64,000 nt of DNA from Caldalkalibacillus uzonensis (GTDB lineage Bacteria > Bacillota > Bacilli > Caldalkalibacillales > Caldalkalibacillaceae): the NCBI RefSeq assembly GCF_030814135.1, contig NZ_JAUSUQ010000007.1, positions 62,001 through 126,000 on the forward strand, written 5' to 3'. Position numbers and translations under genes: made by a program. The notes beneath the pieces are model-generated. The model was given only the letters and a program-made list of their open reading frames with translations. It was not told the origin of the DNA and did not search any database. Within the stretch, counting starts at the first letter, position 1. Each line of letters starts with the position of its first letter. This document shows positions 7,453 through 22,708 of this stretch, piece by piece.

Positions 7453-8502
7453 ATGGTCTATCTTTTATTTGCTATTTCCGCTGTTGTGACCATTATTGTT
7501 GCTGTGCGTTTGTCCACCTACGCGGATGTGATCAGTCATAAGACAGCATTTGGAGGTATGTTAATCGGTGCTGTTTTGCTCGCTATGGCAACATCCTTAC
7601 CTGAGGTAACGACCAGTGTAACCGCAGTGTTGATCAATAATCCCGATCTGGCCGTGGGTAATTTATTGGGCAGTAACTTATTTAATTTGTTGATCATTGC
7701 TGGATTTGACCTTTATTTTCGTCGTCGGCAAGGCTTCCTGCAGGCAACCCGGCCGCAAATATATACCGCTATCCTGGCCCTCTATCTCACCTTGGCTGTC
7801 TTTATATTCTTGCTTATCAAGTTTCCCTATAGCGTGTGGGGCGTGGGTTGGGATACGTTATTTCTTATCAGTGTTTACGGGGCAGGCATGGCTATGATTT
7901 CCCGGGTAAAAAAAGAGGACGGAGGCGAGAAAAAGCTTCCTCATTTACAGCGAAGCCCCATGTCTGTTCCCGGAGGAGGAGAGAAGAGACAGGAGTCGGT
8001 AAAGGATCCTTCCCGGGAGATCCCTGTGCGCCGGGCTTGGATTGGCTTCATTGTGGCTTCTATGATCATCCTGGTGGCTGGTTCAGTCTTAACCATGACC
8101 GGAGACCGGATCGCCGTTTTGACTGGCTTAGGCTCAACATTTGTAGGCAGCTTTTTGATTGCCGCTTCCACTTCATTGCCTGAATCTGTATCGGTTTACA
8201 TGGCTTTTCAACTGCGCAACTATCAATTGGCCATTGGCTCGATCTTGAGCAGTAATTTGTTCAACATCTTAATTCTAGGTGGCACGGATGTGTTTTTTCG
8301 TGCCGGACCTATTCTTTATGCAGCTGACGCAGCCCACCGTATCACAGCCATGTCAGGCATTGTTCTGCTGGGGCTTGTCCTCTACGCTCTGGGGCGCAGA
8401 CGGTCTCGTCCCCTGTTTTATCCCGTGCCATCTATTGTGCTGGTTTTACTCTATTTTGTCTACAGTTACTTCATTTTTCTCACTTCATCCAAACCGCAAT
8501 AA
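7453..8502 (+). CDS. CaCA-family sodium/calcium exchanger-like membrane protein
   Basis: Integral membrane cation antiporter of the Ca2+:cation superfamily. Two homologous halves carry the alpha-repeat signatures: AMATSLPEVTTS with GNLLGSNLFNLLII in the first, and AASTSLPESVSV with GSILSSNLFNILILGG in the second. The acidic residue in SLPE is the ion ligand. A polar, charged loop between the halves (around residues 155-195) is the cytoplasmic linker. The start is placed at ATG 7453, preceded by AGGAGGG at good spacing, giving 349 residues; an upstream in-frame start at 7354 lacks a ribosome site. Ion specificity (Ca2+/H+ versus Ca2+/Na+) cannot be told. Calcium or sodium handling would suit an alkaliphile. 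Confidence 0.85.
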   Translation: MVYLLFAISAVVTIIVAVRLSTYADVISHKTAFGGMLIGAVLLAMATSLPEVTTSVTAVLINNPDLAVGNLLGSNLFNLLIIAGFDLYFRRRQGFLQATRPQIYTAILALYLTLAVFIFLLIKFPYSVWGVGWDTLFLISVYGAGMAMISRVKKEDGGEKKLPHLQRSPMSVPGGGEKRQESVKDPSREIPVRRAWIGFIVASMIILVAGSVLTMTGDRIAVLTGLGSTFVGSFLIAASTSLPESVSVYMAFQLRNYQLAIGSILSSNLFNILILGGTDVFFRAGPILYAADAAHRITAMSGIVLLGLVLYALGRRRSRPLFYPVPSIVLVLLYFVYSYFIFLTSSKPQ

Positions 8503-8554
8503 TAGGTAAAAATAATGAAAGTGGAAGAGGGTTTTACCGCAAAATATTGTCTCT

Positions 8555-9559
8555 GTGGAAAACCGTTCCAGGGATCGGTTTCATCAAATTGGTTTTGAAT
8601 TAAACAAGATGGCGTTGGAGATCAAAGCGATTATGGCTGAATTGGCTTCCGCCTCGGAGTTGACTCAGGACATTAGCAGGAGTCAGGCCAAGGAAGCGGA
8701 CCAACTGGCCAAAACATTTGAAGACTTGTCTGCCATGACCCAAGAGTTTCAGTCTGGCACCCAACAGCAATTGGCTTCATTGGAAGAAGCGAATGCCATG
8801 ATACGAGAAATGCAACAGGCGATCGAAAGTTCACAGCACAACGCTGGAACCGCTTTAACATTAAGTGAACGGGCGTTTGCCACAGCAGATGAAGGGACCG
8901 CAGCTGTTCAAAAGGCGGAAGAGCATATGCAATATATCCGCCGTACGATACAAGAGACAGCTCAGGTGATTCACCGTGTTTCAGCTGACGCTAACGAAGT
9001 GCTGAATAAGGTATCTGCAATCACGGATATCGCCAAACAAACCAACTTGCTGGCTTTAAATGCTTCCATTGAAGCGGCCAGAGCGGGAGAACACGGGCAG
9101 GGATTTGCTGTCGTGGCCCAAGAGGTGCGCAAATTGGCTGAGGATACATCTTCTTTTGCCGCAAATATCATTGAGATTTTAAGTCAGACAGATGAACAGG
9201 TGAACTGTGCTGTCCGGCAAGTGGAAGCCAGTGTGCAAGCGATTGAGGAGGGTGTTGGCGTTATCAGTGAAACCGGTCAATCTATTACAGGACTGCATCA
9301 GATTGTTGAACAAACACGGGATCAGGTTGCGGACAATCACGAGCGGGCCACACAGTTAATTGATGAATGTACACAATTAAGCAAAATTATGGATGAACTG
9401 ACCCGCATCGCTGAGGACTTTACCCAATCAGCTGCGCAAACAGCAACAGCGATGGATGAACAGGTGAACACCGTTCAAGCTTTGGCCCAAGATGCCCAAA
9501 AGTTATCTGAACAGTCGGAGCAGTTGGATACTATTGTTCGACGGTTCCGCATTGAATGA
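8555..9559 (+). CDS. Soluble methyl-accepting chemotaxis-type signalling protein
   Basis: Chemotaxis transducer output module of 334 residues. The highly conserved hairpin tip is present ([24 protein letters not shown], then [16 protein letters not shown]), flanked by long heptad-patterned helices with Gln/Glu pairs typical of methylation sites. No transmembrane segment and no recognisable PAS, GAF or heme domain precedes it; the first 40 residues are a short amphipathic stretch. It is therefore a cytoplasmic transducer that must sense through another protein or an unrecognised N-terminal element. The start codon is GTG at 8555 without a strong ribosome site, so the exact start is uncertain. 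A terminator follows. Confidence 0.85.
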
Positions 9560-9589
9560 AAATCAAATGCAATGCCAAGCGTACATCTA

Positions 9590-9617
9590 AGCGTACATCT
9601 GTTGTACGCTTTTTTTA
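9590..9617 (+). terminator. Rho-independent terminator after the chemotaxis gene
   Basis: The stem AGCGTACA / TGTACGCT is followed by TTTTTTT. The left arm is part of a small direct repeat (GCGTACATCT twice, 9579-9600). Confidence 0.85.
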
Positions 9618-9651
9618 TGTTGAACCCAAATGAAAAATTTGAAAATTAATG

Positions 9652-9681
9652 TTGCTCATTCAAAAAGAGTTGTTATATAAT
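9652..9681 (+). promoter_or_regulatory. Sigma-A-like promoter upstream of the small zinc protein
   Basis: TTGCTC and TATAAT are separated by 18 bases. Just downstream (about 9692-9707) the interrupted palindrome AATACAATACTGTATT could be an operator in the initially transcribed region. The protein binding it, if any, is not known. Confidence 0.5.
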
Positions 9682-9763
9682 AGTATCAGATAATACAATA
9701 CTGTATTAGTACAGCTCGCCAGCAACATCCACACAACAAATCGTCAAGAGAGGAGGATAACAC

Positions 9764-9916
9764 ATGGATTGTCACCGCTGTGGCGGTCATGGCGATGTAG
9801 AGTGCCGGCATTGTCGCGGACAGGGTTTTATGAATCATGATACCCCTTGTCCCCATTGTCACGGTGAAGGGACCCACATTTGTCATACTTGTTTAGGCAA
9901 TGGCGCCATTGAATAA
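9764..9916 (+). CDS. Small DnaJ-like zinc-finger protein (50 aa)
   Basis: A 50-residue protein with AGAGGAGG eight bases before its ATG. It reads MDCHRCGGHGDVECRHCRGQG in its first half and has two more Cys-x-x-Cys motifs (CPHCHGEG and CHTCLGNG). That makes four CxxC(x)GxG-like units, the pattern of the DnaJ/Hsp40 cysteine-rich domain, which binds two zinc ions. It lacks J-domain and C-terminal chaperone parts. Similar free-standing minidomains include anti-TRAP of B. subtilis, but this protein does not resemble anti-TRAP outside the cysteine pattern. It is monocistronic with its own promoter. Possible roles are zinc buffering, redox chaperoning or protein-protein regulation; none can be chosen from sequence. 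Confidence 0.8.
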   Translation: MDCHRCGGHGDVECRHCRGQGFMNHDTPCPHCHGEGTHICHTCLGNGAIE

Positions 9917-9919
9917 AAA

Positions 9920-9978
9920 AGTGATCAACTTCCTGCAAGCCAAGCACAAACCCTTGACTGTGAGGATTGTTGATCACT
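9920..9978 (+). terminator. Long-loop inverted repeat after the zinc-finger gene
   Basis: Perfect ten-base arms AGTGATCAAC and GTTGATCACT enclose about 39 bases and are followed by GAGAAAAAAG rather than a T run. It may be a weak terminator or an mRNA-stabilising hairpin, or, since TGATCA is palindromic, a regulatory site. Confidence 0.35.
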
Positions 9979-10138
9979 GAGAAAAAAGAAGGGATTCAAT
10001 ATGACGTCAGGCGTCACACCTTATTTTAACATAATTTTTAACATAACAGAAATGTTTTCGAAAAATAGGGAGCATCGGATTGTTTGAGAAAATTTATAAT
10101 TATATTGAAATACAAATAATGGATAGGAGTGGGTTTTG

Positions 10139-11440
10139 ATGATAAACGAACAAGAACGTTTAGCCTTGGAGGAAAGCTGGAAAGCAGAGCGTTGGCAAGG
10201 GATTGAACGTCCTTATACGGCCGAGGATGTGTTGCGTCTGAGAGGTTCCGTAAAGATTGAGTACACGCTGGCCCGGTTGGGAGCAGAACGCTTGTGGGAA
10301 CTGGTTAACACCGAAGATTATGTCAATGCTTTGGGGGCCCTGACAGGTAACCAAGCCGTTCAGCAAGTGAAAGCAGGCTTAAAAGCCATTTACTTGAGCG
10401 GCTGGCAGGTGGCCGCTGATGCCAACCTAGCCGGTCACATGTATCCCGACCAAAGCTTATATCCGGCCAACAGTGTGCCCCATGTTGTCAAACGGATCAA
10501 TCAAGCTTTGCAAAGGGCCGATCAAATTGAGCATGCTGAAGGCAAGAGGGAGCGCTATTGGTTTGCCCCCATTGTGGCTGATGCTGAAGCTGGATTTGGT
10601 GGTCCGCTTAACGTGTTTGAGCTGATGAAAGCGATGATCGAGGCCGGTGCAGCAGGCGTTCACTTTGAAGATCAACTGGCCTCGGAGAAAAAATGCGGCC
10701 ACCTGGGCGGAAAAGTACTGTTACCCACCCAGCATGCGGTACGCAACCTGATTGCTGCCCGCCTGGCTGCCGATGTGATGGGGGTACCTACCGTGCTGAT
10801 TGCCCGTACGGATGCCAATGCCGCCCGGCTGTTGACCAGCGATGTGGATCCCTATGATCATCCTTTCTTGACCGGAGAGCGTTCACCTGAGGGTTACTAT
10901 TATGTGAGAGCCGGATTGGATCAAGCTATTGCCCGGGGATTGGCTTATGCCCCTTATGCCGATCTGATTTGGTGCGAAACATCAGAGCCTAACCTGGAGG
11001 AAGCCAGACAATTTGCCGCAGCCATTCATGAAAAGTTCCCGGGTAAACTGTTAGCTTACAACTGCTCCCCTTCCTTTAATTGGAAGAAAAAGCTGGACAA
11101 TGAGACCATTGTCAACTTCCAGAAAGAGTTGGCCGAAATGGGCTACAAGTTTCAATTTGTTACACTGGCCGGTTTTCATTCGCTCAATCACAGCATGTTT
11201 GAATTGGCCAGAGGGTATAAAGAGCGTGGCATGGCTGCCTACTCTGAACTGCAGCAAGCGGAATTTGCCAGCGAAAAATACGGTTACACCGCCACACGCC
11301 ACCAGCGTGAAGTGGGGACCGGATATTTCGACGATGTGGCCCAGGTGATCTCAGGAGGCACCACTTCCACAACAGCCCTTACCGGTTCAACAGAGGAAGA
11401 GCAATTTACCAGCTCCCACTATACACAAGTTAGGTCCTAA
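10139..11440 (+). CDS. aceA: Isocitrate lyase
   Basis: Cleaves isocitrate to glyoxylate and succinate, the first step of the glyoxylate shunt needed for growth on acetate or fatty acids. It has the active-site signature KKCGHLGGK, with the catalytic Cys at 186, and the metal-binding region around ADAEAGFGG. Length 433 residues, standard for the bacterial enzyme. The start is ATG 10139, spaced nine bases from AGGAG; a TTG lies one codon upstream. Malate synthase is not adjacent and not in the window. The upstream 220 bases hold the inverted repeat TGACG-TCAGG-CGTCA at 10002-10016, a possible operator. The enzyme fits functionally with the fatty-acid genes elsewhere in the window. Confidence 0.95.
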
Positions 11441-11445
11441 AAACT

Positions 11446-11513
11446 GCCCCCCTGCGAAACGGAAGCTGTGGACGAAGCCTAGTCTCCCAGCTCCGTAAGC
11501 AGGGGTTTTTTTG
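11446..11513 (+). terminator. Rho-independent terminator after aceA
   Basis: A two-part stem (CCCCTGC with GCAGGGG, and inner CGGAAGCT with AGCTCCG) is followed by TTTTTTT. Confidence 0.85.
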
Positions 11514-11579
11514 GTGAACAAAGGAGGCGGTGTTGTGTTACACTATGTTTAGAACACGAAGAATAAGAGGTGAAACTTA

Positions 11580-12056
11580 ATGGCTGAGACGATGGTAGGT
11601 CACTCCGTGCCAGATATCAGCTTGCCAGCATCTGATGGCAGGGAGGTTTCTCTGACCGACTTTCGCGGGCAATACTTGGTCCTGTACTTTTATCCAAAAG
11701 ATATGACTCCGGGCTGTACCACAGAAGCATGTGACTTTAGGGATTACCATCCATTGTTAGCAGAATTGGGCGTCAAGGTGATTGGTGTGAGTCCGGATGA
11801 TGTGCAGTCCCATGAAAAATTTATTCAAAAACACAATCTTCCCTTTCTGTTGTTGGCCGATACCGAGCAACGTCTGGCCAAACATTTTCAAGTGTGGACC
11901 TTAAAGAAAATGTATGGTAAGGAATATATGGGCATTGAGCGCTCTACGTTCCTCATTGACCGGGAAGGCAAGGTTGTCAAAGAGTGGCGCAAAGTGAAGG
12001 TTAAAGGGCATGTCCAAGAGGTTGTTCGTGCTGTTGAAGAACAAGTGACTCAGTAG
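11580..12056 (+). CDS. bcp: Thiol peroxidase of the Bcp/PrxQ family
   Basis: Thioredoxin-dependent peroxiredoxin that reduces H2O2 and organic hydroperoxides. It has the Bcp signature FYPKDMTPGCTTEACDFRD with peroxidatic Cys46 and resolving Cys51 five residues apart, as in PrxQ enzymes. Length 158 residues, typical. ATG at 11580 follows AAGAGGTG. It stands alone between the aceA terminator and the next acyl-CoA synthetase gene. Peroxide defence is a reasonable partner to fatty-acid and glyoxylate metabolism, but no shared transcript is evident. Confidence 0.93.
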   Translation: MAETMVGHSVPDISLPASDGREVSLTDFRGQYLVLYFYPKDMTPGCTTEACDFRDYHPLLAELGVKVIGVSPDDVQSHEKFIQKHNLPFLLLADTEQRLAKHFQVWTLKKMYGKEYMGIERSTFLIDREGKVVKEWRKVKVKGHVQEVVRAVEEQVTQ

Positions 12057-12147
12057 CCGGCTGCCCTGATGGCGGCCCCGTTTATTGGTTTTCAGTATAT
12101 AAATTTAGTCATGTTCATAAGTTAGTCCTGCAGGGAGGGGATCAGTG

Positions 12148-14130
12148 ATGAGTGCGAGGGATTTTTCATCTACCGATGAGCGTTTGAATGAGTTTAAGCA
12201 CTTTCCTGTGGCATGGGAGCCAAGCGAAAAGGGCAAAACCGAAGCTAATCTCACTCAATTTATGCAGCAGTATGGCATTAAAGATTTAAACCATTTGCTG
12301 CAAAAGTCGGCGGAAGATTTGGAATGGTTTTATGAGGCTGTGTTGAAAGCGCTTCAAATTCAATGGCATCAACCTTACCAACAAGTGGTCGACCTTTCCA
12401 AAGGCAGTCAGTGGCCCCGCTGGTTTGTCGGCGGCAAAACCAACTTAGTGGATAATTGCCTTGAAAAACATATTGAAAACGGAAAGGGAGACCACCTGGC
12501 CCTGATCTGGGAGGGGGAGCCGGGGGATGTGTGCCGCCGGACCTATGCTGAATTAAGCCGGGAGGTTACCGGGCTGGCTGCAGGATTGAAGAAACTGGGC
12601 ATTAAGAAGGGAGACAGGATCGGCATCTTTCTGCCCATGCTGCCCCAGACCCCTGTAGCTCTGTTTGCCTGTGCCAAAATAGGGGCTATTGTCATTCCGA
12701 TCTTCTCCGGTTATGCGGCCGATGCAGTGGCTAAACGCCTGGAAGATTGTGGCGCTAAGTTGTTGATTACAGCCGATGGCTACTACCGGCGAGGACGGAC
12801 CGTCAACATGAAAGCGGTCGCTGATCAAGCCGTTCAAGCGGTCCCCTCTGTGAAGCATCAAGTGGTGGTCAAACGCGCCGGTCAAGACGTGGACTGGGTC
12901 AAGGGACGGGATATCTGGTATGATGACCTGTTTGATGTTAACGAAACAGCAGAAACAGCATCAATGGCCAGTGATGAACCGTTTATGATTATCTATACGT
13001 CTGGAACAACGGGGCGGCCCAAGGGAACCGTGCATACTCATGTGGGTTTTCCCATCAAAAATGGCATTGATATGTATTTCAGTTTTGATGTCAAGGAAAC
13101 AGATCGCATCTTTTGGTTGACAGATATCGGTTGGATGATGGGGCCGTGGCTGTTCCTGGGCACAACCATGCACGGAGCTGCTATGGTTTTATATGAAGGC
13201 ACGCCGGATTATCCTCACCCAGAGCGGATGTGGCAATTAATCGAGGATCATCAGGTAAGCATTTTGGGCATCGCTCCGACTGTCATCCGTGCCCTGATGA
13301 ATCACGGGGACGAATGGACGGCTCGCTACCCCTTGTCCTCCCTGCGCCTTCTGGGCTCTACTGGTGAACCCTGGACGGCCAAATCGTGGCAATGGTTCCT
13401 AGAAAAAGTGGGACGGGGACGCTGTCCGATTATTAACTATTCTGGGGGAACAGAAGTGTCTGGGGGTATCTTAGGTTGTTATCCTACTTTGCCGCTTAAA
13501 CCATGTTGCTTCCATGGTCCTTTGCCCGGCATAGTGGCCGATGTGGTCGATGAACAGGGGCAATCGGTTGTCGGCTCGGTTGGCGAACTTGTTGTGCGCA
13601 AACCGTTTGTAGGCATGACCCAGTCGTTCTGGCAGGATGATGAACGTTATGTGGACACATATTGGTCTAAATGGCCTGATGTATGGGCCCACAGCGACTG
13701 GGCAGCTGTTGATGAGGAAGGGTTCTGGTACATTTTGGGCCGTGCGGATGATACGATCAAGGTGGCCGGTAAACGGGTGGGTCCCTCCGAAATTGAATCG
13801 GCTGTTTCTGAGCACCCTGCCGTCAGTGCAGCTGCTGCAATCGGAGTGCCGGATGAGGTTAAAGGCGAAGTGCCTGTGTTGTTTGTCATCCTCCGCTCAG
13901 GGCATGAACCGTCTGAAGCATTACAACGGGAATTAGTGGAGCAAGTGACCAGCCGTTTGGGTAAAGCACTTAAACCGAACCGAATTTGTTTTGTCGATGA
14001 TCTGCCCCGCACGCGCAATGCTAAAATCCAGCGGCGCCTCATCCGGTCCAAATATTTGGGACAATCGTTGGGCGATACGTCAGCCTTGGAAAATCCCCAG
14101 TCCTTGGAACAGATTAAACCTCTTGAGTAA
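12148..14130 (+). CDS. AMP-forming acyl-CoA synthetase (acetyl/propionyl-CoA synthetase-like)
   Basis: Activates a short carboxylic acid to its CoA thioester through an acyl-adenylate. It contains the AMP-binding P-loop IIYTSGTTGRPKGTVHTH, the Gly-Trp region (WLTDIGWMMGPW), the hinge/core motif GRADDTIKVAGKRVGP and the C-terminal catalytic lysine in RTRNAKIQRR. Residues 10-80 match the N-terminal extension of acetyl-CoA synthetases. At 660 residues it is full length for that group, but the sequence is divergent from canonical AcsA, so substrate preference (acetate, propionate, acetoacetate or other) is open. The start is ATG 12148 behind CAGGGAGGGG; a GTG sits one codon earlier. It is monocistronic. 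Confidence 0.88.
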   Translation: MSARDFSSTDERLNEFKHFPVAWEPSEKGKTEANLTQFMQQYGIKDLNHLLQKSAEDLEWFYEAVLKALQIQWHQPYQQVVDLSKGSQWPRWFVGGKTNLVDNCLEKHIENGKGDHLALIWEGEPGDVCRRTYAELSREVTGLAAGLKKLGIKKGDRIGIFLPMLPQTPVALFACAKIGAIVIPIFSGYAADAVAKRLEDCGAKLLITADGYYRRGRTVNMKAVADQAVQAVPSVKHQVVVKRAGQDVDWVKGRDIWYDDLFDVNETAETASMASDEPFMIIYTSGTTGRPKGTVHTHVGFPIKNGIDMYFSFDVKETDRIFWLTDIGWMMGPWLFLGTTMHGAAMVLYEGTPDYPHPERMWQLIEDHQVSILGIAPTVIRALMNHGDEWTARYPLSSLRLLGSTGEPWTAKSWQWFLEKVGRGRCPIINYSGGTEVSGGILGCYPTLPLKPCCFHGPLPGIVADVVDEQGQSVVGSVGELVVRKPFVGMTQSFWQDDERYVDTYWSKWPDVWAHSDWAAVDEEGFWYILGRADDTIKVAGKRVGPSEIESAVSEHPAVSAAAAIGVPDEVKGEVPVLFVILRSGHEPSEALQRELVEQVTSRLGKALKPNRICFVDDLPRTRNAKIQRRLIRSKYLGQSLGDTSALENPQSLEQIKPLE

Positions 14131-14159
14131 GAATAAAGTACCCAATGAGTCTGTAGCGC

Positions 14160-14187
14160 TACCCTCGCCACTACATAGGCGAGGGTA
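14160..14187. terminator. Perfect 10-bp hairpin downstream of the acyl-CoA synthetase gene
   Basis: TACCCTCGCC, an eight-base loop and GGCGAGGGTA form a perfect stem, followed by AATAAAT rather than a T run. It probably ends the upstream transcript. Confidence 0.5.
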
Positions 14188-14276
14188 AATAAATCTGTGT
14201 AAACAAAGGGTTTATCAACCAAAAGTCCTAAGAATATGGTTCCAATATACTATTATTTTTTATTTTTTAAAATTAT

Positions 14277-14305
14277 TTGAAATATGCTAGAAAGTATGGT
14301 ATAAC
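14277..14305 (+). promoter_or_regulatory. Sigma-A-type promoter for the repeat-peptide gene
   Basis: TTGAAA, 17 bases, TATAAC. Transcription from here would leave a 5' leader of about 200 bases before the peptide start at 14510. The 380-base gap between genes (14131-14509) otherwise holds the hairpin at 14160, the mini-ORF at 14351 and A+T-rich sequence with no other feature I can support. Confidence 0.55.
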
Positions 14306-14350
14306 TTTATTAGACATATTTATCCAAAACATACATGGAACGGAGGTGAG

Positions 14351-14392
14351 TTGACAAACACTGCACTACAAAACCGTCACTTATTGACATGA
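14351..14392 (+). CDS. Possible 13-residue leader peptide
   Basis: A TTG codon sits four bases after GGAGG within CGGAGGTGAG, and reads MTNTALQNRHLLT before TGA. The ribosome site is near-perfect although the spacing is short. It lies in the predicted 5' leader of the repeat-peptide gene, so it could be a regulatory uORF or coincidence. TTGACA appears twice here (14351 and 14384), so these bases may instead be promoter elements. Confidence 0.2.
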   Translation: MTNTALQNRHLLT

Positions 14393-14509
14393 AGTAGCAA
14401 AGTTTGCGTCAGTGTTGGACAAGCCATTATCATTTACATACAACTAGAATTACACATAGATAAATCTTGTTAACACAAAAATTTGCTTTTGTGGGAGGTA
14501 CCGAAGTAT

Positions 14510-14731
14510 ATGAAAACAATGATGAAGGTGTTTGCGTCTGGGTTTGCTGTTGTGTTGATATTATGGGGGATATTTGTGGTCGTAGGTTTTGATGGACAAC
14601 CTGTTGCTAAACCCATTGACATGGATCCAGGACCAGCAAGTCAGGAGCTGGCCACCCCTATTGATATGGATCCCGGTCCAGCCAGTCACTACCTCGCTCG
14701 ACCCATCGATATGGATCCTGGTCCGGCTTAA
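14510..14731 (+). CDS. Secreted multi-copy signalling-peptide precursor (three PIDMDPGPA units)
   Basis: A 73-residue pre-peptide. Residues 1-7 include two lysines and residues 8-26 are a hydrophobic segment (FASGFAVVLILWG...), forming a Sec signal or anchor. The rest contains PIDMDPGPA at residues 35-43, 50-58 and 65-73, exactly 15 residues apart, with variable linkers between; the last copy is the C-terminus. The copies are identical in protein but differ at the third base of seven of nine codons, so selection acts on the peptide. ATG 14510 follows GGGAGGT. An HTH-TPR regulator gene begins 272 bases downstream. The arrangement fits export, processing and re-import of a short pheromone (Phr/PapR/NprX style). 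A RiPP precursor is an alternative, but no modifying enzyme is nearby. Confidence 0.75.
   Translation: MKTMMKVFASGFAVVLILWGIFVVVGFDGQPVAKPIDMDPGPASQELATPIDMDPGPASHYLARPIDMDPGPA
14612..14728 (+). repeat. Three 27-bp repeat units with 45-bp period encoding PIDMDPGPA
   Basis: Copies at 14612-14638, 14657-14683 and 14702-14728. Codons 1, 2, 3, 6, 7, 8 and 9 vary among copies but only synonymously; ATG and GAT (codons 4 and 5) are invariant. The linkers SQELAT and SHYLAR differ. Confidence 0.95.
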
Positions 14732-14780
14732 CTTGTGATCTGTGGATGTGACTATGTAAACAATCCTATAGGCCATAGAA

Positions 14781-14816
14781 CAAAAGCACCGTGAAAAAAC
14801 GGTGCTTTTGTCATCT
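14781..14816 (+). terminator. Rho-independent terminator after the peptide gene
   Basis: A perfect twelve-base stem CAAAAGCACCGT / ACGGTGCTTTTG with a six-base loop. Its T-rich 3' arm ends the peptide transcript before the regulator gene, so the two genes are transcribed separately. Confidence 0.85.
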
Positions 14817-15003
14817 TGGTTTTCATGGTAGAAAATGTTAGAATTTAATATAAGTACTTGGCCAAGCTTGGGTGTTATTATTTTTAATTTTTAAAATCTG
14901 ATGAGAAAAGGACATCCATGTTAAACTTTGTTTAGGAGAGAGAGGCAATATACGATAGACAGATTATATAGATTATATATTTTGGAAAAAGGAAGGGCAT
15001 GAC

Positions 15004-16305
15004 ATGCATATTGGCAAGCGCATCGCCAAACTCCGCCGTGCACAGCAGTTATCGTTGATTGACCTAGCAGATGAGCACTTGTCCAAAAATGAATTGTTTT
15101 TAATTGAAGCAGGCCACCACCTTCCAAGACAGGCTGTCTTGGAAGACCTGGCTCGAAAATTGAATGTCCCTGCTCATTATCTGCTGCGTTTTGACCAGGA
15201 AAATGCGCTTTTGATGAAACAGCTGAGGCAATTACATTTGGAACTGGATGAGGGGCGAGTCCAAAAAGCGGAAGTGTTACTCAAGGAGATTGATCAAACC
15301 TATCCGTATATCTCCTCTGTGGAACAGGAACTCTATTTTTTGTTGCTTAAGAATTACCTCTATATCCATACAAAAGAGGCCTCCCTGGCGGTTAAATTCT
15401 TCGATGAACAGATTGCTCCTTTGGTGGATGGCACTACAGCTACGCAGTGGCCCTGTTCCCCTTCCATTGTTAACCTGTATTACTTTGTTCAGGGCCGCAT
15501 TCTTCAATATATGTACAGATATGAGGAAAGCAACCGCTTTTTTTACAAACTGTTGGAGCAGCCGCTTGATGAACGCCAACAAGCTCGGGTGCTTTATAAT
15601 ATTGCTCGCAATTACTATTTTTTAAATGATTTTGATCAAGCCAACACTTATGGTTATAATGCCCTGCCGCTCGCCCTCAAACACCATATATGGTCATTGG
15701 TCACGCAAACGTATATCTTGATCGGCATGATTAGCAGGAAATTAAAAGATTATGAAACAGCAGAGGAATTTTACAAGCGGGCCTTGGAGTTGACAGAATT
15801 ACATGAAATGGTTGAATTCCAGACTTATGTTTTAAATAATTTGGGAAGTTTATGTCACGATCAAGAAAAATACCGGGAAAGTCTGACCTACTTTCAAAAA
15901 GGATTGTATTTATCCAAGTATATTGCTAATCCACAACTGATCATCAGCTATTATAATGTGTTGGAGACTTTTTTGCTTCTTAATGAATATGAGGAGTTTA
16001 ATTGGCTTATGGATGAAGCCAAGGAGAATTGTAAGGATGAGAAGGACAGGTATCTGCTCCAGATTTTAGAGGCCAAAAAATTCCATCAAGCAGGGGATAT
16101 CAAGATGTATGAAATGTTGATGGAAAAATGCATTAACTATTTCGCCCGTAAAAATATGTTGTCTTATATATTGGATGAAATTGAGCAGCTGGCGGATCAT
16201 TTTGCAAAACAGAAAAACCATGCTAAGGCCAAACACTATACTATGCTGTTACACAATGCTACCCATTCAGTTGGAGCACACCAAGATACAATGCCCCAGC
16301 CTTAA
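15004..16305 (+). CDS. HTH-TPR transcriptional regulator, RRNPP-like (putative peptide receptor)
   Basis: A 433-residue cytoplasmic regulator. Residues 1-60 form an XRE-type helix-turn-helix (IGKRIAKLRRAQQLSLIDLA, then LSKNELFLIEAG, LARKLNVPAHYLL). The rest is helical and built of TPR-like pairs, for example RVLYNIARNYYFLNDFDQAN, KLKDYETAEEFYKRALEL and NLGSLCHDQEKYRESLTYFQ. This architecture and size match PlcR, NprR and other RRNPP peptide-responsive regulators. The pre-peptide gene immediately upstream is the obvious ligand candidate. Upstream lie a ten-base palindrome CTTGGCCAAG (14857-14866), a possible operator, and a short direct repeat AGATTATAT near 14963. ATG 15004 follows GGAAGGGC. 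No phosphatase residues of Rap proteins could be identified. Ligand pairing is inferred. Confidence 0.85.
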   Translation: MHIGKRIAKLRRAQQLSLIDLADEHLSKNELFLIEAGHHLPRQAVLEDLARKLNVPAHYLLRFDQENALLMKQLRQLHLELDEGRVQKAEVLLKEIDQTYPYISSVEQELYFLLLKNYLYIHTKEASLAVKFFDEQIAPLVDGTTATQWPCSPSIVNLYYFVQGRILQYMYRYEESNRFFYKLLEQPLDERQQARVLYNIARNYYFLNDFDQANTYGYNALPLALKHHIWSLVTQTYILIGMISRKLKDYETAEEFYKRALELTELHEMVEFQTYVLNNLGSLCHDQEKYRESLTYFQKGLYLSKYIANPQLIISYYNVLETFLLLNEYEEFNWLMDEAKENCKDEKDRYLLQILEAKKFHQAGDIKMYEMLMEKCINYFARKNMLSYILDEIEQLADHFAKQKNHAKAKHYTMLLHNATHSVGAHQDTMPQP

Positions 16306-16328
16306 GATGTGTTAACCAAGCATATATG

Positions 16329-16378
16329 TTAACCAACTTATTTTTTAGGTTGATATTAACTCCCGCTCTCCCTATAAT
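16329..16378 (+). promoter_or_regulatory. BirA operator overlapping the bioY promoter
   Basis: TTAACC, 13 bases, GGTTGA matches the BirA box of B. subtilis (TTAACC-N13-GGTTAA) except one base of the right arm. The right arm overlaps the -35 of a strong promoter, TTGATA-N17-TATAAT (16350-16378). A second GTTAACCAA lies just upstream at 16311. Biotin-charged BirA would block transcription. Confidence 0.75.
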
Positions 16379-16429
16379 GAGAATAGTAGATGTTAAAGTC
16401 TAAGTTGAATTGAATGGGAGTTGGGAGAA

Positions 16430-16999
16430 ATGAAGCTGAAAGATATGATGTATGTGGCATTATTTGCAGCGGTAACAGCAGCGCTGGGTTTATTGCCCCC
16501 CATTCCCCTGCCGTTTACCCCTGTGCCTATCACCTCACAAACTTTAGGAGTCATGTTAGCCGGTGCTATTTTGGGTGCCCGCCTGGGTAGTTTAAGTTTG
16601 CTCTTATTTGTGTTTCTTGTGGCTGTCGGTGCTCCTGTTTTAACCGGCGGACGGGGGGGACTGCCGATTATACTGGGTCCCAGCGGAGGGTACATATTAA
16701 GCTGGCCTATAGCCGCTTTTGTCATTGGCTTTTTGGTGGAACGTTTTTGGAGCCGTTTAAATGTGTGGAAGGTGTTTGTATTCAATATTTTGGGAGGCAT
16801 GATCGTCATTTATGCGGCAGGTATTCCCTACCAGGCTTTTGTTACAGATTTGCCTTTGCAAGCAACAGCCCTCTCTGCTGTGGCCTATCTTCCGGGCGAC
16901 CTGCTCAAGGCGTTGATTGCCGCGTTGGTGGCTGTCAAAATAAAACAGGTCCGTCCATTCATACAACCGCGCATGGCCAATCGCTCCTCTTCTCAATAA
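16430..16999 (+). CDS. bioY: Biotin transporter substrate-binding subunit BioY
   Basis: S-component of an ECF-type biotin importer, a 189-residue membrane protein with about six hydrophobic segments. Family hallmarks include the N-terminal ALFAAVTAALG, the loop PFTPVPITSQTLGVMLAG and GGPSGGYILSWP-like sequence (LGPSGGYILSWPIAAF). ATG 16430 follows a GGGAG site. The BirA box in the promoter independently supports a biotin role. No ECF ATPase or EcfT gene is adjacent, so the module must be shared with genes outside the window or BioY works alone. Biosynthetic bio genes are absent here. Confidence 0.93.
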   Translation: MKLKDMMYVALFAAVTAALGLLPPIPLPFTPVPITSQTLGVMLAGAILGARLGSLSLLLFVFLVAVGAPVLTGGRGGLPIILGPSGGYILSWPIAAFVIGFLVERFWSRLNVWKVFVFNILGGMIVIYAAGIPYQAFVTDLPLQATALSAVAYLPGDLLKALIAALVAVKIKQVRPFIQPRMANRSSSQ

Positions 17000-17024
17000 T
17001 CTGCTCCTTATTCACTTTTGTGAC

Positions 17025-17055
17025 AAGGTTTGTCCCGATAAGGGCAAACCTTTTA
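17025..17055 (+). terminator. Rho-independent terminator after bioY
   Basis: AAGGTTTGTCCC, loop GATA, then AGGGCAAACCTT with one bulge, followed by TTTATT. Confidence 0.75.
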
Positions 17056-17123
17056 TTCTAGCTACTAGAATCACAGCTAGGCGGTTTTTACCTCCTGCCA
17101 ACAAATCAGAGGTGACATGGTGA

Positions 17124-18110
17124 ATGATGCTAACTGCACCGATCTTAAGTCATGCTAAACACTATCCTAATAAACCGGCAATAAGGACGGGGAGCCAGGA
17201 GGTGGTCTATGGGCAATTGGCAGCTGATATCATGACAATTGCCTCCTGGTTAAGGCAGGGAAGCATCTGTACTCAGCTCCAAACCAAAGCGGACTGGCCT
17301 GTTTCGGTCCTGTTTATTGTCCCTACCATGGCCGCAGCAATCATGCAGGAATTGGAACATCGGGAGGAAGTACCGACTGCCCATCATCTGCAAAAAATCA
17401 TTTCTTCAGGAGCAAAATGGCAAGCAGTGGACAAACGTAAACTGGGCACGTTTTTTCCGCACACGGGCTTGTATGAATTTTATGGTGCTTCCGAATTAAG
17501 TTTTGTGAGTGTGCTCTCTCCCCAAGATCAGCTGTCTAGAGGCGCTTCCGTTGGCCGCCCCTTTTACGGGGTAGAGATCTCCATTCGCAATCAAGATGGG
17601 CAGGAAGTGGCCCCGGGGGAAGTCGGTCAAGTGTATGTTAAAAGTGACATGTTTTTTTCCGGGTATGTCCACGATCAACAGGCAACCCAAGAAGTGTTAC
17701 AAGGGGAATGGGCCACTGTTGGAGATGTGGGAACTGTCGACGAAGACGGCTATTTGTATCTTGTCGGACGGGCTAAAAACATGATCATTAGCGGCGGGTT
17801 GAATGTTTATCCCGAAGAAGTGGAACGGGTCTTGAAACAGCTGCCCTGCATTGAAGAAGCCGCCGTGATTGGTGTACCTGACGATTATTGGGGAGAGAAG
17901 GTGGCAGCTGTTGTTAAGTTCAGAACAGGTGAGCGTCTGGAGCAAGAGGAGATCAGGCAGTATGTCAGGCAATATCTGGCCCGCTACAAGTGCCCCCGGG
18001 AGATTATTGAAGTATCCACCTTTCCTTATACATCTAGCGGGAAAATTGCCCGGCGCAAGTTACAGGAGATGATTCTGGCCCAAAAGCATGGCAACAATGT
18101 GCGCACTTAA
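17124..18110 (+). pseudogene. Acyl-CoA synthetase with large internal in-frame deletion
   Basis: Reads as a long-chain/MenE-type AMP-forming acyl-CoA ligase but only 328 residues, where about 480-520 is usual. Residues 1-50 match the family start (HAKHYPNKPAIRTGSQEVVYG). After about residue 55 the sequence jumps to the middle of the enzyme (SVLFIVPTMAAAIM). Roughly 150 residues are missing, including the ATP-binding P-loop (T/S-SGTTG). Later motifs are intact: YEFYGASELS, GDVGTVDEDGYLYLVGRAKNMIISGG (in part) and the catalytic lysine region SSGKIARRKL. Without the P-loop it should not adenylate substrates. The frame is open, so it may be a recent deletion or an assembly collapse. It is followed closely by a similarly damaged thiolase gene. 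Confidence 0.8.
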
Positions 18111-18159
18111 CAATGAGCAGCCCCTGGTCAGCAGGGGATGTGGCAGTAAGAAGGGTCCT

Positions 18160-19101
18160 ATGAACAACAAAGCAGTGATTGTAGAGGCGAAGCGCACGCC
18201 CATTGGTAAGGTGGGAGGGATGTTAAAAGATGTTTCTCCTGAACAATTGGCTGCCCATGTGATGAAAGCCCTCATTTCCGAATGCGGCCTGTCTTTTGGT
18301 CAAGTAGATGAAGTGATCTTGGGCAATGCCACCGGTCCCGGCGGCAACCTGGCCCGTCTGGCATTGTTGACTGCCGGTTTTCCGGTAGAGGTGCCCGGAG
18401 TCACAGTTGACCGACAGTGCGGTTCCGGTTTGGAAGCGGTCAATCTGGCTGCCCGTCTCATACAGGCCGGAGCTGGAGAGTTTTATGTAGCTGGAGGGGT
18501 AGAAAGCACCAGTCAGGCCCCTTGGAAAATAGAAAAGCCGGCCTCTCTTTACAAAGGGGCACCACGTCTGTTTACCCGGACCCGCTTTTCTCCTGTGTTT
18601 AGGGAAAACGGAACGGTGACGGCTGGGAATGCCTGTCCGATTAATGATGGTGCGGCAGTGCTCCTGGTCATGTCCGAACGTAAAGCCCGTGAACTGGGAC
18701 TTGTCCCGGTGCTGGAGTTTGTGGATGCGGTTTCAGCCGGCGTCGATCCCAATCTGTTAGGCATTGGTCCCGTTCCTGCTGTGAAAAAGCTGCTTGAACG
18801 GCAGGGTATGACCGTGGATGAGATCGATTTGGTTGAGTTTAATGAAGCATTTGCCTCACAAGTAATCGCCTCCTTGCGGGAATTGGGGATTCCCTGGGAC
18901 AAGGTGAACGTGGGCGGCGGCGCTATTGCCCTGGGCCACCCGTATGGGGCCTCTGGCGCCATCTTGGTGACAAGGTTGGTGACAAGGTTGGTGACGGAGA
19001 TGTCGCTGCATCAAGCCACCTGGGGCCTGGCTACGTTAGGCATTGGCGGTGGGCTGGGCTTGGCTACCTTGTTTAAACGTTACATACAGGACACCTGTTA
19101 A
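18160..19101 (+). pseudogene. Acetyl-CoA acetyltransferase (thiolase) with internal deletion
   Basis: Thiolase-like, 313 residues from ATG 18160 against a usual length near 390. The nucleophilic Cys is present (DRQCGSGLEAV) and so is the His loop (GHPYGASGA). Sequence jumps from RTRFSP directly to VFRENGTVTAGNACPINDGAA, losing about 70-80 residues of the loop domain. The second catalytic Cys, normally C-I/S-GGG near the C-terminus, is replaced by Gly (LGIGGGLG). A 12-base tandem duplication (TTGGTGACAAGG, about 18965-18990) inserts LVTR repeats. These changes argue for loss of activity. It lies 50 bases after the deleted acyl-CoA ligase; the pair was probably a fatty-acid or ketone module. 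A terminator follows. Confidence 0.8.
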
Positions 19102-19117
19102 CAAAGCAGGCAATCAG

Positions 19118-19154
19118 GCCACGGACAAGCCGTTTGGCTCCGTGGTTATTTTTT
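19118..19154 (+). terminator. Rho-independent terminator after the thiolase remnant
   Basis: CCACGGA / TCCGTGG stem with inner AAGCCGTTTGGCT, then TTATTTTTTG. Confidence 0.75.
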
Positions 19155-19159
19155 GAAAA

Positions 19160-19194
19160 GTGGTATAGACAACTAAACAACTAGATGTTATACT
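19160..19194 (+). promoter_or_regulatory. nagABR promoter with NagR (dre-like) operator
   Basis: TAGACA-N17-TATACT promoter (19166-19194). Its -35 lies inside GTGGTATAGACAACT, which resembles the dre site bound by NagR/YvoA in B. subtilis (core TGGTATAGACCA). The third gene of the operon encodes a NagR-like GntR protein, so autoregulation by GlcNAc-6-P or GlcN-6-P is likely. Confidence 0.65.
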
Positions 19195-19238
19195 TGGATT
19201 GAAAGGGGTTACACAAAGAGATCAAACTGAAGGGTGAA

Positions 19239-20420
19239 ATGTTCATGGCGGCAAATAGCATGGTGATTAGCGGAGGAACAATCGTGACCGGGGAGAAGGT
19301 GATTCATGACGGACACGTCATCGTGGAGGGAGACAAAATTGCAGCCGTAAGTGATACGCCCTATGGGGAAGCAGAGACCAGTGTAAAAGTGATACACCTC
19401 AATGACAGCGATTTCCTTTTCCCTGGTTTTATTGATGTGCATATTCATGGTGTTGCAGGTGCCGATGTGATGGATGGCACCCGGGAGGCTTTGCAAACCA
19501 TTGCCCAAGCGTTGCCTGCCGAGGGAACAACCAGCTTTTTAGCGACGACCATCACCCAAAGTGACGACGCCATTTCCCAAGCAGTTCAAAATGTTCACCA
19601 GTATATGAACGATCCTGCACCGGGGGCAGAGGTACTGGGCATTCACCTGGAAGGTCCGTTCATCAGTGAACGCCATCCAGGGGCCCAGCCCAAAGGGCAT
19701 ATTGTCCCCCCTTGTGTGGAGACGTTTGCGAAGTGGGAAAAATTGTCTGGAGAAAAGATCCGGTTGGTGACGCTGGCTCCGGAAGAAGATGAGGGACTTG
19801 CGCTGGTCAAATATTTAAAAGGGAGGGGGGTCATCATTTCAGTTGGCCACTCCCATGCCACTTATGCGCAAGTGTCCCAAGCTGTGCAATATGGCCTGTC
19901 TCATGCTGCGCACCTGTTTAATGCCATGCGTCCCCTTCACCATCGTGAACCGGGAGTTGTTGGAGCCGTTTTTTTGCATCCTGACATCACGGCAGAGATT
20001 ATCTTTGATCATGTGCATGTCAAGCAGGAAGTGGTGCAGCTGGCCTACAACATCAAAGGTCCGGAAAAGATGATCCTGATTACGGATGCCATACGGGCTA
20101 AGGGGTTGGGGGACGGTGCCTATGACCTGGGGGGCCAAACGGTGACCGTAAAAGAGAACAGAGCGCTCTTGGCAGATGGCACGCTGGCTGGCAGCATGCT
20201 TAAAATGAATGAGGCTGTCAGACATGCCAGCAGGTTGAACGGCTGTGACCTTGTGGATCTTGTCAAGCTGTCCTCTCTTAATGCAGCCCACAAATTAGGC
20301 ATCGCCCACCGCAAGGGAAGTATAGCCCCAGGAAAAGATGCTGATTTGGTTGTGCTAGATCAAGATTTCAACGTACAGCAAACCATCTGTCGCGGACAGC
20401 TGATCTATGACAGGAAATGA
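19239..20420 (+). CDS. nagA: N-acetylglucosamine-6-phosphate deacetylase
   Basis: Removes acetate from GlcNAc-6-phosphate to give GlcN-6-phosphate, from imported chitin sugar or cell-wall recycling. Amidohydrolase fold with the metal and catalytic elements visible: PGFIDVHIHG, GIHLEGPFIS with metal-binding Glu, SVGHSHATY, SHAAHLFNAMRP and the catalytic Asp in LITDAIRA. 393 residues, normal. ATG 19239 follows AAGGGTGAA. Its 3' end overlaps or abuts nagB, consistent with the nagA-nagB-nagR operon order of bacilli. Confidence 0.95.
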   Translation: MFMAANSMVISGGTIVTGEKVIHDGHVIVEGDKIAAVSDTPYGEAETSVKVIHLNDSDFLFPGFIDVHIHGVAGADVMDGTREALQTIAQALPAEGTTSFLATTITQSDDAISQAVQNVHQYMNDPAPGAEVLGIHLEGPFISERHPGAQPKGHIVPPCVETFAKWEKLSGEKIRLVTLAPEEDEGLALVKYLKGRGVIISVGHSHATYAQVSQAVQYGLSHAAHLFNAMRPLHHREPGVVGAVFLHPDITAEIIFDHVHVKQEVVQLAYNIKGPEKMILITDAIRAKGLGDGAYDLGGQTVTVKENRALLADGTLAGSMLKMNEAVRHASRLNGCDLVDLVKLSSLNAAHKLGIAHRKGSIAPGKDADLVVLDQDFNVQQTICRGQLIYDRK

Positions 20421-20430
20421 GGTGAGTACG

Positions 20431-21186
20431 GTGGAGATTATCTATGCCCGTGATTATGAGCAACTAAGCAAGCAAGCAGCGCGATATGTCTACCAGTTCG
20501 TGGCCAGCCGCCCTAAGGTGACCCTCGGCTTGCCTACCGGGGAAACTCCCATCGGCTTTTATCGCGAGCTGGTTGCTTTGCACCGGGATAACCCACTTCA
20601 ACTGGGCGGCATGGTCACCTTTAACCTTGATGAATACCTTGGCTTACCGCCCCAGTCACCCCAAAGTTATCATTCCTACATGAACCGGCATCTGTTTGAA
20701 CCTTTGGGTTTGCCCCTTGAACAAACCCATATTCCCGATGGTTTGGCCAAGGACCCTGAAGCAGAATGCCAGCGGTATGAGGAAGAAATCAGGCGGCACG
20801 GTGGTCTGGACCTTGTGATTTTAGGTGTGGGGCGGAACGGGCATATTGGGTTTAACGAACCTGGCACCTCATTCGACCGGAGAACCCATGTTGTCACGCT
20901 GGCGGAAAGTACCCGGCAGGCAAATGCGCGCTTTTTCCCTTCTCTTGAAGATGTGCCCACTCAGGCTATTACCATGGGCATTGCCACCATTTTGGAAGCG
21001 GACGAAATCATTCTCTTGGCCAGCGGCTCTAAAAAAGCGGAGGCTGTTTATCACTTAATAGAAGGTCACAAGGTGACTGAACAGTGGCCGGTCACAGCAT
21101 TAAAGCGTCATGACCGCGTTACCGTATTCTTAGACCGGGAAGCAGCGGCCTTGTTATCTACAGCAAAGGAGACGAGTGCACCATGA
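20431..21186 (+). CDS. nagB: Glucosamine-6-phosphate deaminase
   Basis: Converts GlcN-6-phosphate to fructose-6-phosphate and ammonia, delivering amino sugars to glycolysis. Motifs: LGLPTGETPIGFYREL (phosphate loop), FNLDEYLGL with catalytic Asp, and ILGVGRNGHIGFNEPG. About 251 residues. Start choice: GTG 20431 (VEIIYARDYEQLS) aligns with the usual NagB N-terminus and follows GAGGTGAG. An in-frame ATG at 20407 overlaps the end of nagA and would add eight residues. The 3' end overlaps the nagR start by four bases (ATGA). Confidence 0.95.
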   Translation: MEIIYARDYEQLSKQAARYVYQFVASRPKVTLGLPTGETPIGFYRELVALHRDNPLQLGGMVTFNLDEYLGLPPQSPQSYHSYMNRHLFEPLGLPLEQTHIPDGLAKDPEAECQRYEEEIRRHGGLDLVILGVGRNGHIGFNEPGTSFDRRTHVVTLAESTRQANARFFPSLEDVPTQAITMGIATILEADEIILLASGSKKAEAVYHLIEGHKVTEQWPVTALKRHDRVTVFLDREAAALLSTAKETSAP

Positions 21187-21905
21187 TTGATAAAGACTCT
21201 CCCATTCCGATCTATTACCAGCTCGAAGAACTGATTCGCACCCAGATTGAGAATGAGGCCTTACAGCCGGGAGACCTGATTCCTTCTGAGCGGGAACTGG
21301 CCGAACAATATCACATTAGCCGCATGACTGTCCGTCAAGCGATCACCAATCTGGTTAACGAAGGTTTGCTGGTCAGAAAGAAGGGCAAAGGTACCTTTGT
21401 GGCTGAGAGGAAAATTGAGCAGCCTTTGTCAAAGTTAAGGGGATTTTCGGAAGATATGCGCAGCCTGGGTATGGTACCGGAAACAAAGCTCCTTGAATTT
21501 AAAGAAGTACCGGCTCCTATTAAAGTAAGCCGGGAGTTGCATATTAAAAGGGGGGATTTGGTCTATCAGATCAGCCGTCTGCGTTTGGCCGATGGGCGCC
21601 CCATGGCCTGCGAAGTAGCCTATTTGTCTAAACAGCGTATACACGGGTTGACGGAAGAGACTGTGAAAGGATCGCTATACCAGTACATTGAACAGGAGCT
21701 TAAGCTGAAAATTGAACGGGCAATTCAAAGTTTAGAGCCCAGTGTTGCTTTTAAACAGGAGAGCCAACTATTGGAGATTGCCGAGCAAGCACCGGTTTTA
21801 CTCATGAGACGAACCACCTATTTAAGTGACGGGACGCCGTTTGAGTATGTCAAGTCTGTGTACCGGGGAGACCGGTATAAGTTTGTAATTGAGATGTATC
21901 GTTAA
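21183..21905 (+). CDS. nagR: GntR/HutC-family repressor NagR
   Basis: Transcriptional regulator of amino-sugar use, 240 residues. The winged HTH is IPIYYQLEELIRTQIENEAL...PSERELAEQYHISRMTVRQAI, followed by a UTRA effector domain (LRGFSEDMRSLG, LVYQISRLRLADGRPMACEVAYL). It overlaps nagB by four bases, indicating translational coupling. By homology it binds dre sites and is released by GlcNAc-6-P/GlcN-6-P. A dre-like site overlaps the nagA promoter. It may also influence the PTS operon starting 60 bases later, since no strong terminator separates them. Confidence 0.92.
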   Translation: MIDKDSPIPIYYQLEELIRTQIENEALQPGDLIPSERELAEQYHISRMTVRQAITNLVNEGLLVRKKGKGTFVAERKIEQPLSKLRGFSEDMRSLGMVPETKLLEFKEVPAPIKVSRELHIKRGDLVYQISRLRLADGRPMACEVAYLSKQRIHGLTEETVKGSLYQYIEQELKLKIERAIQSLEPSVAFKQESQLLEIAEQAPVLLMRRTTYLSDGTPFEYVKSVYRGDRYKFVIEMYR

Positions 21906-21967
21906 TTTTGCGAAGGAAATTCCAAAAAAAGGAGTTCACTTTAAATGTCTAAGTGGAGGATTAGATC

Positions 21968-22405
21968 ATGCACTTTTTAACACAGGAACTTATACAGCTT
22001 GATGCCAAGGTAAACAACGCCAAAGAAGCTATTGAACAGGCGGGCAAACTATTGTTAGATCAACAGTTGATCAATGAGTCCTATATACAAGCCATGATCG
22101 ATTCTTATGAACAAAACGGGCCTTATTTTGTATTGGCTCCTCACATTGCTTTGCCACATGCCAGGCCTGAAGATGGAGCTAAACAGGCAGCCGTATCCAT
22201 GCTGCAATTAAAAAAACCTGTACCATTTGGTCACCCTAATAATGATCCGGTCTCTCTCGTCTTTGCTTTAGCAGCAGGATCCAACAATGAACATATTTTG
22301 GTCTTAAAAAAATTGTCTACACTCCTGGGGAATGAAGAAATCAGATATAAATTTATGACAGCTAAAAACTATGAAGACTTACAAAGTGTGATAGAGGGGG
22401 ATTGA
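21968..22405 (+). CDS. PTS EIIA component (mannitol/fructose/ascorbate type)
   Basis: Phosphotransfer protein of 145 residues that passes phosphate from HPr to EIIB. The active histidine is His64 in ALPHARPEDG, the PTS_EIIA_2 signature. It is the first gene of a set IIA-IIB-IIC with the order and size of the Ula (L-ascorbate) family; IIB starts four bases after its stop. The substrate is unknown: the downstream enzymes differ from the ula pathway, so L-ascorbate is not assumed. A GGAGGA site precedes ATG 21968. Confidence 0.88.
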   Translation: MHFLTQELIQLDAKVNNAKEAIEQAGKLLLDQQLINESYIQAMIDSYEQNGPYFVLAPHIALPHARPEDGAKQAAVSMLQLKKPVPFGHPNNDPVSLVFALAAGSNNEHILVLKKLSTLLGNEEIRYKFMTAKNYEDLQSVIEGD

Positions 22406-22408
22406 AAG

Positions 22409-22678
22409 ATGAAAATCTTAGCAGTATGTGGATTGGGTCAAGGCACAAGTTTAATTTTACGTATGAATATTGAAGAGGTGTTAAACGAGGCAGGAGTAGA
22501 CGCAGAGGTGGAGCATGTGGATGTTTCGGCAGCTTCAGGGGTTGAGGCGGACTATATCTTAACAAGCAATGAGCTGGCTCAAAGCCTCCAAGGACATCAA
22601 GCCAAAATTTTGGTTGTTAACAACTACTTTGACATAGAAGAAATCAAGCGGGTGTTAAGCCAAAATCGAGTGATCTAA
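22409..22678 (+). CDS. PTS EIIB component (lactose/ascorbate type)
   Basis: A small IIB protein of 89 residues with a P-loop-like phosphocysteine: Cys7 in AVCGLGQGTSLIL. The Ser/Thr-rich loop fits the UlaB/SgaB group. It accepts phosphate from the adjacent EIIA and donates it to sugar transported by the EIIC encoded next. Tightly packed with its neighbours (3 and 30 bases), so almost certainly cotranscribed. Confidence 0.88.
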   Translation: MKILAVCGLGQGTSLILRMNIEEVLNEAGVDAEVEHVDVSAASGVEADYILTSNELAQSLQGHQAKILVVNNYFDIEEIKRVLSQNRVI

Positions 22679-22708
22679 ACTATCTTGATGAGGGGAGGAG
22701 AATTTGTG

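Follow-up and report, generated by a model that had tools for sequence, protein, structure and literature searches.

The window, that is, the whole stretch of 64,000 nucleotides of Caldalkalibacillus uzonensis DNA that was analysed, carries on its + strand the gene of a 73-aa propeptide (14510-14731), with a charged start, a hydrophobic segment and three copies of the nonamer PIDMDPGPA, and, as its direct neighbour, the gene of a 433-aa regulator with an HTH and nine TPRs (15004-16305), a predicted RRNPP(A) receptor. The two very probably form an RRNPP(A)-type quorum-sensing pair of the HTH-nine-TPR (NprR-like) kind, in which the propeptide would be exported, cut, re-imported and bound by the regulator. 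A pheromone/receptor pair of the RRNPP type had been proposed in an earlier note on this DNA, and the proposal is now backed by the fold of the regulator, its anchoring Asn, the selection on the nonamer and the Phr-like ORFs found at 21 of 29 homologous loci against 0 of 60 controls. The signal sequence, which was not found in any other genome of the 151 searched, and the upstream placement of its gene with a hairpin of its own look new; the receptor class, multi-copy precursors and the DPG motif in other RRNPPA peptides are already known. With this pair, the RRNPP(A) systems gain a new signal sequence and also a group of receptors, spread over several Bacilli, that are often accompanied by peptides with [DE][VP]G-x-P. 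We find the number of copies less interesting than the position of the signal gene, upstream and with a hairpin, and the receptor left an orphan in a congener.

In the proposed mechanism, the propeptide would leave the cell by means of its hydrophobic N terminus and be cut extracellularly to yield as many as three identical peptides, each lying within PIDMDPGPA or overlapping it, a step suggested by the selection on the nonamer and by the maturation of other repeated Phr precursors. The peptide could be re-imported by an oligopeptide permease, for which the source genome of 3.88 Mb offers candidate binding proteins (eight matches to SBP_bac_5 oligopeptide-binding proteins, at least one of them a fragment), and would then settle in the TPR groove of the regulator, with N279, whose position is conserved, as its anchor. 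Binding would alter the DNA binding of the regulator and hence the transcription of its targets; peptide binding activates NprR and PlcR and inhibits AimR. Signal and receptor could be expressed separately.

The regulator and its relatives in other Bacilli

The earlier note had described a regulator of 433 aa with HTH and TPRs beside the peptide, and this description agrees with the results obtained here. Pfam matched the protein to TPR families down to E 5e-15 (TPR_12), its HTH matches lying below their cut-offs, and no NCBIfam model scored above its cut-off. The AlphaFold2 model (29 sequences; pLDDT 92.5, pTM 0.87) presents N-terminal HTH helices and then nine further helix pairs, as counted by eye. 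The leading fold matches among solved structures are Rap proteins and NprR, in particular RapJ with its pheromone (4gyo_A; Z 31.1, rmsd 4.2 over 342 residues) and NprR (5dbk_B; Z 30.5, rmsd 3.5 A over 340 residues), but unrelated TPR proteins such as LGN also reach a Z of about 25, and the fold alone therefore does not settle the class of the regulator.

When the family profile was compared with the PDB, NprR was matched over profile positions 66-412, which is the whole TPR region (E 1e-28), RapF with E 1e-26, and PlcR from position 3 onwards, thus across the HTH as well (E 8e-14), with designed consensus TPR proteins outscoring NprR through their repeats. NprR and Rap were brought up only by the family profile and not by the single regulator sequence, for which the matches listed comprised TPR proteins, designed or eukaryotic, and hits to the HTH only, NprR and Rap being absent among them. 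The peptide-anchoring Asn conserved in RRNPP receptors, N227 in RapF (PMC3601957), falls in a nearly invariant column and corresponds to N279 of the regulator, as read by eye from printed alignments.

At E <= 0.001, matches to the regulator turned up in 37 of 101 genomes; many of these are weak and cover it only in part. Wider genome searches at class and family level added further homologues and the plasmid collection one, and the search of the genome contig collection (12 pattern stretches) found no relative. The neighbourhood was counted at 29 loci, namely the homologues with E <= 3.2e-20 from the genome searches and the one plasmid locus, the weaker homologues L010-L031, L035 and L036 being left out. 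A Phr-like ORF was defined as one of 28-100 aa with a basic start, a hydrophobic segment and a Shine-Dalgarno sequence, starting <=60 bp from the regulator stop. Such an ORF lies directly downstream at 21 of the 29 loci, which do not amount to 21 independent events because several of the loci are closely related, and it starts -4 to +17 bp from the regulator stop. The control consisted of 60 ORFs of >=150 aa in the window, not all of them necessarily genes; none is followed by a Phr-like ORF.

The script found no downstream peptide at the remaining eight loci (L003, L004, L005, L006, L007, L008, L032 and L048). At L007 a clear downstream peptide with two copies of SINPAYLAVDAGDVDLM is recognizable by eye and falls outside the 21 because its Shine-Dalgarno sequence lies beyond the limits of the script, and at L032 (G034:C26) a pheromone-like frame with GDVGWPQ and no ordinary start codon, 3' of the regulator, was not counted. 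At L005 (G011) and L006 (G051), in genomes assigned to different genera and with no recognisable peptide, the printed beginnings and ends of the two regulators are identical in sequence, possibly through a recent transfer. Among the weaker homologues scanned for small ORFs, a Phr-like ORF of 38 aa lies just downstream of the L036 regulator, and no adjacent one was found at L010-L014, L019, L025 and L035. A 42-aa signal-peptide-like ORF at L011 (MKKGLVASALIFILSISFMNPLNDGGG...; 1108-1236, + strand) is convergent with its regulator (1501-2751, - strand), possibly another unusual peptide placement.

Receptor-peptide pairs were thus recognized at L007, L009, L043-L045, L047 and L049-L064, with regulators 22-31% identical to the one studied here. 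Like the pair of the window, they have a small Phr-like ORF, many show [DE][VP]G-x-P themes, and L055 and L007 are multi-copy; unlike it, they have the peptide directly downstream and with other sequences. In particular, [DE]VG-x-PH occurs in the peptides of L045, L051, L052, L054, L055 and L060-L064, and GDPGVPE or GEPGIPE in those of L043 and L044. The ORF of 72 aa directly after the L055 regulator (G541) contains four copies of NPNSEVGDPHSV, a richer copy multiplication than three within the same receptor family. Supplementary tables apart, the literature searched contained no paper on a receptor group with [DE][VP]G-x-P peptides and none of five motifs of the relatives' peptides; the pair or its relatives, for example as "subfamily 21" of Alkalihalobacilli, may be listed in published supplementary tables.

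Absence of the peptide beside homologous regulators had been named beforehand as a finding that would speak against the pair. The exact peptide is indeed absent there, including beside a same-genus orthologue with 72% identity, but Phr-like peptides accompany 21 of the 29 regulators, and since the peptides of the relatives differ among themselves too, we do not read this absence as a refutation.

Gene arrangement and the same-genus orthologue

The 272 bp between the two genes contain a terminator-like hairpin of 13 pairs (14780-14811, + strand). The segment 14770-14822 folds with -27.2 kcal/mol (z -8.2), and none of 200 shuffles was equally stable. Against the "perfect terminator" claimed at first, the T-run 3' of the stem is poor, and a terminator scan of the region found one site against a shuffle mean of 2.0, that is, not above chance. 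Upstream of the peptide gene, a candidate promoter TTGAAA-N17-TATAAC (14277-14305, + strand) was read by eye inside a conserved block (14254-14332), and the scan of the region did not list it. The peptide gene, which has a hairpin and probably a promoter to itself, could be expressed separately from that of the receptor.

The leader of the peptide gene also contains a short frame, MTNTALQNRHLLT (14351-14392), with a strong GGAGGTGA site and a TTG start, which could be a leader peptide or due to chance. An operator common to both genes, considered because the AT-rich segment 14252-14283 resembles 14877-14900, was rejected, as 62 of 1000 shuffles scored as high. Rfam returned no family above threshold in 12000-18500.

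The regulator of another genome of the genus (G001) is 72% identical to that of the window, and the block 14254-14332 is found upstream of it as well (80% in blastn, across 80 columns; the alignment scores 87, whereas 300 single-base shuffles reached at most 47). The block lies about 194 bases from the regulator in G001 and 671 in the window, and G001 has no peptide gene there; a copy elsewhere in G001 was not found by pattern search, and the protein search gave only a weak match (E 0.35). The stretch that stands in place of the peptide gene includes 73-84 bases that recur at two other places in G001 and once in G000 (78% identity); this dispersed repeat is probably the debris of a mobile element. 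We infer that the peptide gene was lost in G001, with a gain in the lineage of the window as a possible alternative.

This arrangement bears on whether the two genes belong together. Counting against the pair, the peptide lies upstream, 272 bp off and behind a hairpin, whereas the peptides of the counted relatives are directly downstream; moreover, the G001 orthologue persists without it. It is possible to imagine from these observations that the three-copy peptide is indeed exported as a signal but read by another protein, and that the adjacent regulator is an orphan or the reader of another peptide, placed beside it fortuitously. We regard this explanation as unlikely, considering that the regulator has just one match in the source genome at E <= 0.001, that the family leads one to expect such a peptide gene next to an RRNPP-type receptor, and that the block upstream of the peptide is also kept upstream of the G001 regulator.

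Taking peptide and regulator as the pair, we can ask what became of the receptor in the congener. The G001 regulator is intact, and its comparison with that of the window gives a dS of 0.85 and a dN of 0.18 (dN/dS about 0.2), which implies that the regulators were constrained for most of their divergence, even though the loss could still be recent. A second G001 regulator (L047 / L033, G001:C63, 1766-3001), 31% identical, has its own 56-aa Phr-like ORF downstream, and the congener therefore need not be deaf to RRNPP signals generally.

It is possible to hypothesize, with considerable doubt, that the three-copy signal gene, lying upstream with a promoter and a terminator of its own, forms a unit uncoupled from its receptor, is ancestral to the genus and disappeared from a sister species in which the receptor persists. 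If this were true, the sister species would be a natural "eavesdropper", which hears but cannot speak, and the species pair would allow a direct test. With the signal present here and the receptor kept without a signal gene in the congener, the two represent a simple natural test case for eavesdropping. PMC9765709 discusses receptors that lack a pheromone gene nearby as eavesdroppers.

Downstream of the regulator follows a bioY-like (biotin-transporter-like) gene at about 16421. Between the window and L037, the regulator-bioY stretch is 78% identical and a nagA-nagB-like stretch at about 19132-21000 is 96% identical, a contrast in sequence identity that suggests recombination between species. 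In addition, the window has at 17124-19101 two ORFs, one acyl-CoA-ligase-like with 328 aa and one thiolase-like with 337 aa, which are absent between bioY and nagA in L037; both look short for their families and are perhaps decaying genes.

The propeptide and its repeated nonamer

The propeptide ORF starts with an ATG preceded by the Shine-Dalgarno sequence GGGAGGT and encodes MKTMMKVFASGFAVVLILWGIFVVVGFDGQPVAK-PIDMDPGPA-SQELAT-PIDMDPGPA-SHYLAR-PIDMDPGPA. The three nonamers, all on the + strand, occupy residues 35-43 (14612-14638), 50-58 (14657-14683) and 65-73 (14702-14728), the last being the C terminus of the protein, so that a peptide of 73 aa with a hydrophobic segment and three identical nonamers spaced 15 residues apart, the last one terminal, is confirmed as it had been described.

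The 27-base copies of the nonamer differ at seven sites, every one of them a third codon position, which require at least nine substitutions, and all 16 pairwise nucleotide differences (5, 6 and 5) are synonymous. When neutral evolution was simulated in a simple way, with nine random substitutions, the residues came out identical in all copies in 3 of 200,000 runs. In the three 6-codon stretches between or before the nonamers, the nucleotide differences lie instead mostly in codons with a changed residue (pairwise counts of synonymous and residue-changing differences, 2/6, 2/9 and 0/10). Since the 45-nt repeat units have only 29-32 of 45 nucleotides in common, the duplication is not recent. 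The restriction of the nonamer differences to synonymous ones, next to spacers with residue changes, indicates at the sequence level that PIDMDPGPA is kept identical by selection while the spacers drift, and hence that a functional peptide lies within or overlaps the nonamer. That the copies have diverged only synonymously narrows down what the mature peptide is likely to be, ahead of any experiment.

The hydrophobic stretch spans about residues 7-26 (Kyte-Doolittle mean 2.7 over residues 7-25), and inspection of the 73-aa sequence revealed no textbook signal-peptidase cleavage site. Together with a weak match in Pfam, to the family YfjL_N (E 0.011, short of its cut-off), these features would also suit a small protein that spans the membrane once, carries a repeated extracellular tail and is never processed into a signal. 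Such a protein appears quite improbable in view of the residue-level selection on three copies among drifting spacers, the position of the last copy exactly at the C terminus, the neighbouring regulator with its Rap/NprR-like fold and the comparable repeated precursors beside relatives.

As regards its distribution, the pattern PIDMDPG was found only in the own genome among 151, and the full nonamer in no viral contig; PIDMDPGP gave single matches in four stretches of the genome contigs (Paraburkholderia, Chloroflexi, Bacteroidetes and Pantoea). The 73-aa protein had no match in phages and, at E <= 1, matches in 33 of 150 other relatives, the best with E 0.0015. The four loci followed up among these did not look pheromone-like, namely frames opposite a LysM-repeat ORF (L069), a 681-aa ORF that is apparently a spore-germination protein (L070) and a 438-aa ORF (L075), and an ORF of 111 aa (L072). 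PIDMDPGPA, IDMDPG and DMDPGP were not found in the literature searched, supplementary tables apart, and this result and the absence from the other genomes of the 151 are consistent with the initial statement that no described pheromone has such a sequence. The rarity of the pattern, in no other of the 151 genomes and elsewhere as single matches in four unrelated stretches, might evoke a functionless chance ORF with a tandem duplication, which the wholly synonymous divergence of nonamers in units duplicated long ago makes extremely improbable.

Comparison with known RRNPP(A) systems

Reading the two genes as a pheromone and its receptor, we compared them with the published systems. The criteria given for RRNPP(A) systems in PMC10075063 are a propeptide of 10-100 aa with Sec export and a receptor of 250-500 aa with TPRs, encoded by adjacent genes, and the 73 aa and 433 aa found here fall within these ranges. 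For the spacing of receptor and propeptide, the same source reports -50 to 191 bp in reference systems and a default range of -60 to 400 bp (PMC10075063), so that the 272 bp of the window lie outside the former and inside the latter. The pheromone genes of Bacillales are described as "immediately downstream" of the receptor (PMC9765709).

The three identical copies, considered unusual at first sight, are not so in the light of published work. Up to six repeated mature peptides occur in AimR, NprR, PlcR and Rap precursors, with repeats in all 17 of the unusually large propeptides of NprR systems (PMC9765709); up to eight copies per precursor are reported in PMC11343458, and duplications in Rap-Phr and NprX in PMC5199041. 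Four copies at L055 and two at L007 point in the same direction.

AimR-AimP and the Paenibacillaceae subfamily 08 are likewise RRNPPA receptors with DPG peptides, a motif widespread among them (PMC12700828) and contained in PIDMDPGPA. However, AimR structures match the regulator less well (Z about 20), and no phage genes were noticed by eye among the ORFs of 8000-24000. Rap-Phr systems, including those with the repeated Phr3T and Phr105, share the TPR groove fold and the conserved anchoring Asn, and their multi-copy precursors were shown to yield active peptides (PMC11343458); different from the regulator of the window, Rap proteins have no DNA-binding HTH.

The NprR-NprX system of the Bacillus cereus group likewise has repeated precursors, according to PMC9765709. 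NprR shares with the regulator of the window the HTH and nine TPRs and is its best-scoring natural match in the PDB profile search, as well as a top fold match. The two regulators are, however, only about 20% identical, and the pheromone gene of NprR lies immediately downstream, whereas that of the window lies upstream behind a hairpin. The sequence of NprX, with its core SKPDIVG, is unrelated to that of the nonamer.
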